Of a DNA stretch of 34,271 nt, positions 26,438 to 29,046 are shown in pieces. A model generated the notes under the pieces. The model was not told the DNA's origin. It searched no databases and was given only the letters and a program-made list of their open reading frames with translations. The first letter of the stretch is position 1, and each line of letters opens with the position of its first letter. This DNA is from Cycloclasticus sp. (lineage in GTDB: Bacteria > Pseudomonadota > Gammaproteobacteria > Methylococcales > Cycloclasticaceae): the NCBI GenBank assembly GCA_018066825.1, contig JAGPVU010000177.1, forward strand, positions 1 to 34,271, in the 5' to 3' direction. Both the position numbers and the translations under genes were made by a program.

Positions 26438-27100
26438 ATGCTGCAATTTATTAACGTTAGTAAGCGATACCCCGGCGGCGGCGACGCGCTTAAAAACGTT
26501 AATTTTGAAATAAAACAAGGGGAAATGGCCTTTTTAACCGGCCACTCGGGTGCGGGTAAAAGCACGCTGTTAAAATTAATCGCCTTGCTTGAGCGCAGCA
26601 CCCAAGGCCAAGTGATGCTAGATAATCAGAATATTGGTCGCCTGTCTAAACGGCTGGTGCCGTATACGCGTCGCAAAATCGGCATGATTTTCCAAGACCA
26701 TCGCTTGCTCCATGACCAAACAGTATTTGACAACGTCGCTTTGCCGCTAATTATTGCTGGCTTTAATCACCATGAGATTAAACGCCGGGTGCGCGCGGCT
26801 TTAGATAAAGTGGGTTTATTGGGTAAGGAGCAGCGCTACCCGATTACCCTATCCGGTGGAGAGCAACAACGTATTGGCATCGCTAGAGCTGTGGTTAATC
26901 GCCCCCCTATGATTTTAGCCGACGAACCCACAGGCAACCTTGACCCCGCGTTATCAGAAGAGATTATGCAGTTATTCGTACAATTTAATCAGGTGGGTGT
27001 TACTGTTTTAATCGCCAGTCACGATATCAGTTTAATCCAACAAATGGGCTATCGTACGCTTCAATTATCACAAGGTGAGTTGGTGCAAGCACATGGCTAA
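26438..27100 (+). CDS. ftsE: Cell-division ATP-binding protein FtsE
   Basis: FtsE is the ATPase of the FtsEX complex, which controls periplasmic peptidoglycan hydrolases at the division septum. Its 220 residues are standard. Seen: [20 protein letters not shown] at the start, Walker [14 protein letters not shown] (about 36-48), [11 protein letters not shown], signature [15 protein letters not shown] (about 138) and Walker [14 protein letters not shown]. The stop overlaps the ftsX start by 8 bases. Confidence 0.97.
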
Positions 27101-28052
27101 TCGTCGTAACAGCATAAAAAAACCCCTGCAGAATTTTAATCTGCGATCTTATATTCGTATTCACTTACACACTTTTTTTGCGAGTCTCGGCCGTTTTTAT
27201 CGCGCACCGTTTAACTTTATGATGACTGTTAGCGTTATCGCCATCACACTATCCTTGCCCTCTGGCTTGTTAGTATCGATTACCAATTTAAAGTCGTTAA
27301 GCGACCAAATTGACCTGAATAATAACATTTCAATATTCTTACAACAAAGCGTCACTTTTCAGCAAGCGGTGGATTTAAGCCAATTACTGGAAAACGACGA
27401 TAAAATTGCCAATACAACACTGATTAGCAAGCAAGATGCCTTACAGGAGTTTCGTCAATACAGTGGTTTTGGCGCCGCTATTCGTGTTCTCAACGACAAC
27501 CCCTTGCCGCATGTCATTCAAATAACACCTATAGCCAACGTAAACAATTCAACACAACTACAGCAATTAGTTACACAACTTGAACAACAGCCGTCCATCC
27601 AACTTGTACAAATGGATATGGGCTGGTTATCACGCTTACAAGGGATTTTAGATATTGCGCAACGCGCGGTCATTCTTATCACCGTATTATTAGGTTTTGC
27701 TGTGCTACTAATTGTGAGTAACACCATTCGTTTAGAACTACAAAACAGGCGTGATGAAATTGATATTACTCGTCTAGTGGGTGCTACTCGATCTTTTATT
27801 ATGCGGCCTTTTATTTACAGTGGTTTTTGGTACGGTTTTTTGGGTGGGGTATTGGCCTGCATTTTAGTCAACTTATCGGTTTGGTTGCTTGACGGCCCGT
27901 CGAGCTCACTTGCTCAGCTATACAGCAGTTCGTTTACTATCGATTATATGACTATCAGCCACGCGCTGTTATGGGTGCTTTTTTCTATCTTATTAGGCAT
28001 CGTCGGTTCTTGGATCGTGGTGAGCCGCTACCTGAGTGAACTAGAACGCTGA
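27093..28052 (+). CDS. ftsX: Cell-division protein FtsX
   Basis: FtsX is the membrane subunit of FtsEX. The 319-residue protein has four membrane segments (about 40-65, 190-215, 240-265 and 285-310) with a large periplasmic loop after the first. Family features include VSVIAITLSLPSGL, SIFLQQSVT, the cytoplasmic ELQNRRDEIDITRLVGATRSFI (two parts) and FIYSGFWYGFLGG. An upstream GTG at 27075 is also in frame, but the ATG at 27093 overlaps the ftsE stop by 8 bases and gives the expected N-terminus, so I use it. Confidence 0.95.
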   Translation: MANRRNSIKKPLQNFNLRSYIRIHLHTFFASLGRFYRAPFNFMMTVSVIAITLSLPSGLLVSITNLKSLSDQIDLNNNISIFLQQSVTFQQAVDLSQLLENDDKIANTTLISKQDALQEFRQYSGFGAAIRVLNDNPLPHVIQITPIANVNNSTQLQQLVTQLEQQPSIQLVQMDMGWLSRLQGILDIAQRAVILITVLLGFAVLLIVSNTIRLELQNRRDEIDITRLVGATRSFIMRPFIYSGFWYGFLGGVLACILVNLSVWLLDGPSSSLAQLYSSSFTIDYMTISHALLWVLFSILLGIVGSWIVVSRYLSELER

Positions 28053-28078: not shown

Positions 28079-28109
28079 TTGACACAATCTTTTGAACTTT
28101 TGCTATAAT
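28079..28109 (+). promoter_or_regulatory. Sigma70 promoter of rpoH with extended -10
   Basis: TTGACA (28079-28084) and TATAAT (28104-28109) both match consensus. The spacer is 19 bases, longer than ideal, but a TG at 28101-28102 makes an extended -10 (TGCTATAAT), which compensates. The predicted start of transcription is near 28115-28118, about 60 bases before the rpoH ATG and inside the CIRCE element. Confidence 0.75.
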
Positions 28110-28120
28110 TAGCACTCTTA
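28094..28120 (+). promoter_or_regulatory. Possible sigmaE promoter of rpoH
   Basis: GAACTT (28094-28099), 16 bases, then TCTTA (28116-28120) resembles the sigmaE consensus GAACTT-N16-TCTGA at four of five -10 positions. E. coli rpoH has a sigmaE promoter with the same spacing. It overlaps the sigma70 -10 and CIRCE, so part of the match could be chance. Confidence 0.4.
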
Positions 28121-28135
28121 TATGGCGAGTGCTAG
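28109..28135 (+). promoter_or_regulatory. CIRCE operator (HrcA-binding site) at the rpoH promoter
   Basis: TTAGCACTC (28109-28117), nine bases, then GAGTGCTAG (28127-28135). The CIRCE consensus is TTAGCACTC-N9-GAGTGCTAA, so 17 of 18 arm positions match and the spacer is exact. The left arm starts at the last base of the -10 box, so bound HrcA would cover the transcription start. The same repeat would form a hairpin at the 5' end of the rpoH mRNA. HrcA is a GroEL-dependent repressor; its gene is not in this window. Confidence 0.9.
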
Positions 28136-28164: not shown

Positions 28165-28170
28165 GGGAGG
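28165..28170 (+). promoter_or_regulatory. Ribosome-binding site of rpoH
   Basis: GGGAGG lies 6 bases before the ATG at 28177. This fixes the rpoH start and rules out the in-frame GTG at 28129, which lies inside the CIRCE element. Confidence 0.85.
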
Positions 28171-28176
28171 GATAAT

Positions 28177-29046
28177 ATGACTTATGCACTTACAGTACCA
28201 GCTAACTTGTCGGCCGGTTCTTTGGATGCCTATATTGCATCCGTTTCTTCTGCGCCTCTTTTAACCGCCGAAGAAGAAAAATCCTTAGCCTTTCGCTTAC
28301 ACAACGATAATGACTTAGAAGCCGCGCGCACGCTAATCTTATCTCATATGCGCTATGTCATCCATATTGCTAGAAGCTACAGTGGCTATGGTTTAGCCCT
28401 ACCCGACCTTATTCAAGAAGGTAGCATCGGTTTAATGAAGGCAGTTAAACGCTTTGACCCCGAGATGGGCGTACGCTTAGTGTCGTATGCGGTACATTGG
28501 ATTAAATCTGAAATCCACGAGTTTGTTATTAAAAACTGGCGCATTGTTAAAATTGCCACCACTAAGGCTCAACGTAAACTGTTTTTCAACCTTAGAAAAC
28601 ATAAACGCGGGCTGACTTGGTTAAATGAATCAGAAGCGGGTGCTATTGCCAATGACCTGGGCGTCGACAAATCAGCCGTTTATGAGATGGAAAAACGCTT
28701 AAGTAATCACGATATGGCGTTTGACGGCCATCAAGACGACAATGCTGACAGCGACGAATTAGTACACACACCAGCGAGCTTTGTCACTGATGAAGAGCAC
28801 GACCCTGCGCGCATCGTTGAAGACAATGTAGAAGAGTCACGTAATAGTGCTCAATTACAAGCTGCTCTGAATCGCCTGGATGACCGAAGCCGGTCAATTT
28901 TGTCAGAACGTTGGTTGAGTGATGAAAAGTCTACTCTGCACGAACTTGCTGATAAATATCAAGTCTCGGCAGAACGTATTCGCCAGCTCGAAAAAAATGC
29001 TATGAACAAAATTAAGCAGCAATTATTGGAGTTTCAGCCGAGTTAA
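28177..29046 (+). CDS. rpoH: RNA polymerase heat-shock sigma factor RpoH (sigma-32)
   Basis: RpoH directs RNA polymerase to heat-shock promoters for chaperones and proteases. The 289-residue protein is of normal length. Seen: the N-terminal SLDAYIASVSSAPLLTAEEE, region 2 (SHMRYVIHIARSYSGYGLALPDLIQEGSIGLMKAV, in parts; LVSYAVHWIKSEIHEFVI), the RpoH box QRKLFFNLRK (about residue 131), which separates it from other group-3 sigmas, and region 4 (ALNRLDDRSRSILSERWLSD; TLHELADKYQVSAERIRQLE). It follows ftsX but has its own promoter region with a consensus -10, a CIRCE operator and a possible sigmaE promoter. The stop codon lies in a 9-bp hairpin. Confidence 0.97.
   Translation: MTYALTVPANLSAGSLDAYIASVSSAPLLTAEEEKSLAFRLHNDNDLEAARTLILSHMRYVIHIARSYSGYGLALPDLIQEGSIGLMKAVKRFDPEMGVRLVSYAVHWIKSEIHEFVIKNWRIVKIATTKAQRKLFFNLRKHKRGLTWLNESEAGAIANDLGVDKSAVYEMEKRLSNHDMAFDGHQDDNADSDELVHTPASFVTDEEHDPARIVEDNVEESRNSAQLQAALNRLDDRSRSILSERWLSDEKSTLHELADKYQVSAERIRQLEKNAMNKIKQQLLEFQPS

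Follow-up and report, generated by a model that had tools for sequence, protein, structure and literature searches.

Accounts of heat-shock control usually treat HrcA and sigma-32 as two alternative or parallel circuits. In the classical HrcA/CIRCE operons, groESL and hrcA-dnaK, operator and repressor are the same as at the locus described here; the groES CIRCEs of this order, however, overlap sigma-70 promoters, whereas here a sigma-factor gene appears to lie under a sigma-E promoter. Promoters of sigma-E follow the pattern GGAACTT-N16-TCTNA. The E. coli record confirms rpoH P3 as TGAACTT-N16-TCTGA between ftsX and rpoH, and this promoter is sigma-E dependent (reviewed in PMC8103513). P3 shares with the present locus the sigma-E spacing and the gene order ftsE-ftsX-rpoH but has no CIRCE, and with PF01628 no HrcA was found in the E. 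coli control genome. A CIRCE at rpoH is not new as such, as in Geobacter sulfurreducens the sequence TTAGCACTC-N9-GAGTGCTAA was predicted in 2004 at -51 from rpoH (Rodionov et al. 2004, Table 8, PMC545781). That site resembles the one described here in being a consensus CIRCE before rpoH, with further CIRCEs at groESL and hrcA-grpE-dnaKJ, and differs in being a computational prediction for one delta-proteobacterium among the genomes studied; the part of the paper that treats it mentions neither a sigma-E promoter nor a dependence on hrcA loss and makes no claim for Gammaproteobacteria (PMC545781). No statement of a class-wide rule or of a sigma-E/CIRCE overlay was found in the open full-text literature. 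The 2004 study of Permina and Gelfand on beta-, gamma- and epsilon-proteobacteria may already mention gammaproteobacterial rpoH.

The window, which is the whole stretch of 34,271 nucleotides analysed here, carries ftsY-ftsE-ftsX followed by rpoH, and all features named below are on its forward strand. It belongs to a host assembly that is 87% complete. The gene ftsX (TIGR00439) occupies positions 27075-28052 and rpoH, which encodes the heat-shock sigma factor sigma-32 of 289 amino acids, positions 28177-29046, with an ATG start at 28177 and 388.6 bits to TIGR02392 (cut-off 323.1). The nearest named RpoH is a Cycloclasticus symbiont protein with 83% identity, which makes Cycloclasticus the probable genus. 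Between the two genes the first-pass annotation had described a CIRCE operator with 17 of 18 arm bases and a 9-base spacer, and both its coordinates and its score were reproduced exactly. Positions 28109-28135 read TTAGCACTC-TTATATGGC-GAGTGCTAG, with arms at 28109-28117 and 28127-28135 and the spacer at 28118-28126, and are conserved class-wide; the consensus used was the palindrome TTAGCACTC-N9-GAGTGCTAA. This is the single match with at most three mismatches in the 34-kb window (mean 0.01 in 100 shuffles), and an upstream region of 350 bp would contain a match of at least 17/18 by chance with a probability of about 3e-7. The operator lies 41 bp before rpoH and overlaps a TATAAT box as well as a sigma-E type -10, that is, the promoter of a heat-shock gene. 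The overlap with TATAAT (28104-28109) is as had been claimed, its last T being the first base of the CIRCE. An in-frame GTG at 28129, within the CIRCE, would extend the rpoH reading frame by 16 codons; it is unlikely to be the start because a probable ribosome-binding site, GGGAGGG, is located at 28165-28171.

The host genome contains the matching repressor gene. Its hrcA (G000:C87) scores 332.3 bits with TIGR00331 (cut-off 197.2), encodes a relative of the solved structure 1STZ and is itself preceded by a weaker CIRCE (15/18). The gene for sigma-E, rpoE, is also found (G000:C79, TIGR02939 293.6 bits, cut-off 236.15). No groEL was found in the 87% complete host assembly, and the groESL operator was therefore examined in congeners, where a groES CIRCE is indeed found; in congeners and relatives from the order, CIRCEs are located at groES, hrcA and rpoH.

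To see the operator against a wider background, rpoH upstream regions were scored in a class sample in which each family is represented by roughly one genome, with at least 15/18 taken as a CIRCE; the GTDB class probably takes in the former Betaproteobacteria. A CIRCE was present at rpoH in 94 of 103 genomes with hrcA versus five of 36 lacking it (Fisher 8e-18), and shuffled upstream regions scored at most 13/18. The arrangement is no peculiarity of this organism and is nearly universal in Gammaproteobacteria with hrcA. The exceptions are nine genomes with hrcA and no site and five with a site and no hrcA; for these five, assembly gaps or a missed divergent HrcA are a possible cause. Among 80 named gammaproteobacterial rpoH loci, those of most Methylococcales score 16-18/18, as do those of Thiodiazotropha, Pseudoalteromonas, Alishewanella and Dyella; Halomonas relatives and Acinetobacter have no such site. 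The site was present in 36 of the 37 hrcA-bearing named loci with usable upstream sequence versus five of about 41 without hrcA, a count that leaves out one locus (L072) with no upstream sequence. Two Pseudoalteromonas loci (L172, L173) show a very divergent HrcA, encoded by a 321-amino-acid reading frame between nadK and grpE, together with an rpoH CIRCE of 18/18; in L172 this HrcA reaches 118 bits with TIGR00331, below the cut-off of 197. As a control for kinship, independent pairs on supported branches were compared. A tree built only from the RpoH proteins of the class sample yielded four supported pairs, which is too few, and a larger tree of 244 RpoH proteins was therefore used. It gave 12 independent pairs, in about eight of which hrcA and CIRCE changed the same way and in none the opposite way (median p 0.008).

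Within the genus the same association can be followed at closer range. In the nearest relative, G005, the rpoH CIRCE is identical to that of the window. No hrcA was found in six congeners (G001, G004, G009, G012, G014, and G016), five of which are 98-100% complete. The arms score 16-18/18 in the nine genomes with hrcA and 11-14/18 in the six without. In G016, one of the latter, the groES CIRCE has also decayed, to 15/18, its spacer still being the same as in the intact copy of G017. The best genus tree has three hrcA changes, of which supported branches require only a few, so that the losses are not well separated. G017 was excluded from the comparison, since the two parts of its hrcA lie at the ends of different contigs (C18 and C38, loci L174 and L175); the middle is missing, either through insertion of a mobile element or through a break in the assembly. 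In L128 of G013 the sigma-E/CIRCE block is about 140 bp farther from rpoH than in congeners, with the sigma-E start at -214, apparently through an insertion between operator and rpoH. Control of rpoH by HrcA, as proposed in the first-pass annotation, is strongly supported at the level of sequence by the presence of hrcA, the retention of the repeat in relatives and the decay of its arms after hrcA loss. With hrcA present and the repeat conserved, neither of the two sequence-level objections to the proposal, a missing repressor gene and an unconserved repeat, materialised.

The nature of the promoter is a separate matter, and here the picture changed. When the 94 sites of hrcA-bearing genomes were aligned on the operator, the arms were near-invariant and the flanks and spacer mostly near-random, except for spacer bases T9 and A11 and a second conserved block, GGAACTT, at -16 to -10 from the CIRCE. 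Of 99 sites, 54 have the first base of this block at precisely -16 and 65 have it between -17 and -15, with zero to four sites at each other offset; roughly one third of the rpoH CIRCE sites have no recognisable GGAACTT. Class-wide, TCTNA occupies CIRCE positions 7-11, at a spacing of 16 bp from GGAACTT. The window has TGAACTT-N16-TCTTA (28093-28120), in which the -35 element (28093-28099, beginning 16 bases before the first CIRCE base) matches 6/7 and the -10 element (28116-28120, made up of the last two bases of the left arm and spacer bases) matches TCTNA in full. At groES CIRCEs the GGAACTT block is absent, and these follow TTGACA...TATNAT instead. A genome-wide search for the sigma-E/CIRCE composite found matches in 62 of 149 genomes, and the reversed pattern, used as a control, found none. 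The 51 matches with zero to two mismatches comprise 47 at rpoH in coding orientation, one at rpoH on the opposite strand and three elsewhere. Of these three, one is at clpB, one is near groES and one is next to ftsX at the end of a contig that has probably lost rpoH to truncation. The composite upstream of clpB (L319:1355-1396, in G202) is perfect, and rpoH of that genome has no CIRCE; the gate seems to have moved to another heat-shock gene. A further feature of rpoH CIRCEs in the class sample is that the right arm overlaps hexamers resembling TAAAAT (positions 24-29, T at 29 in about 90%), which are not found at groES CIRCEs and possibly represent an extra sigma-70 -10 with TTRGCA as -35.

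By its conservation, then, the main promoter beneath the operator is taken to be a sigma-E promoter, which the first-pass annotation had missed. Because of it the predicted input to rpoH is sigma-E AND NOT HrcA, rather than the simple derepression that had been envisaged. Five of the six congeners lacking hrcA keep the sigma-E elements while their CIRCE arms decay. In five of six, too, TCTTA is preceded by GG, giving GGTCTTA (compare GGTCTGA in E. coli), versus AC or AG directly before TCTTA in congeners with hrcA, and the recurrent CIRCE mismatch of the genus, TTAGCAGTC, falls at the position of these two bases. This would fit one stretch of DNA read by both HrcA and sigma-E and relaxed after the loss of one reader, in the few lineages concerned.

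On this evidence the repeat is, with a probability of about 0.8, a functional HrcA operator that spans the -10/start region of the rpoH sigma-E promoter and overlaps, in this genus, a sigma-70-like -10. The original version, in which HrcA represses an ordinary sigma-70 promoter at TATAAT and the likeness to sigma-E is incidental, is unlikely, even though the box carries an extended TG, overlaps the first CIRCE base in the register seen in groES promoters and has been retained, mostly as TATAAT or TATACT, across most of the genus. The claim of a TATAAT promoter stands in that the box is present and kept in the genus, but the conserved profile of the class consists of GGAACTT and TCTNA, a TATAAT-like sequence is in register before the CIRCE in only 14 of 94 sites, and the sigma-E layout recurs in E. 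coli rpoH P3. The sole perfect TTGACA (28079-28084), a doubtful -35 common to the window and G005 only, stands 19 bp from TATAAT, so that a sigma-70 promoter here would depend on the extended -10 (TG at 28101-28102 within TGC 28101-28103); owing to this spacing a generic sigma-70 scan called no promoter at the CIRCE site. As another candidate, a sigma-32 autoregulatory promoter over rpoH was rejected, its best match of 8/13 being not convincing.

Two readings do without a present-day operator. An mRNA hairpin or thermometer would account for the inverted repeat if transcription began at 28109, from where the transcript would fold a 9-bp hairpin. The predicted starts lie inside the repeat, however, and the hairpin therefore cannot form, folds from 28114-28118 having lost it; the arms are invariant in sequence with no compensatory changes, the presence of the repeat tracks hrcA, and an Rfam search gave no match, so that this very improbable reading was rejected. 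A second reading, in which the repeat is merely a relic, or a neutral copy without current control, might be argued from its one deviation from the consensus and from the five of 36 genomes lacking hrcA that keep a site. It deserves hardly any credence, as the repeat is preserved in G005 and the hrcA-bearing congeners despite variable intergenic sequence next to it, and the arms decay once hrcA is gone.

For the preferred reading, that of a working operator over a sigma-E promoter, the site, its register with the promoter, its conservation and its dependence on hrcA come from sequence comparison, and HrcA binding, repression and the GroE feedback are modelled on established HrcA biology. As long as GroE is free, HrcA would bind the CIRCE and keep RNA polymerase off the rpoH promoter; once GroE is taken up by misfolded protein, HrcA would fail and rpoH would become transcribable, with the strongest effect where sigma-E has been released by envelope stress as well. 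The drive would be supplied by sigma-E, and bound HrcA would shut out polymerase from the sigma-E and from any sigma-70 promoter. The cascade from GroEL titration to a rise of rpoH, as first suggested, is plausible as half of the input only. In most gammaproteobacterial families with hrcA, rpoH is probably such a two-input gate, driven by sigma-E and the envelope and vetoed by HrcA, GroE and cytosolic folding, with an operator that shares bases of the sigma-E -10; E. coli would be a remnant after hrcA loss whose promoter drifted to the better -10 GGTCTNA.

The genus supplies natural losses of hrcA, and the gate is directly testable in tractable Gammaproteobacteria that have the gene. If true, HrcA and sigma-32 would be stacked in most sampled hrcA-bearing gammaproteobacterial families, the status of GroE would control whether the sigma factor is made, and the same gene, rpoH, would also receive the signal of envelope stress. 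The textbook heat-shock scheme, that of E. coli, seems to be exceptional in having lost this layer of control and would then be a reduced case, which may help to explain why its rpoH relies on translation and protein stability.
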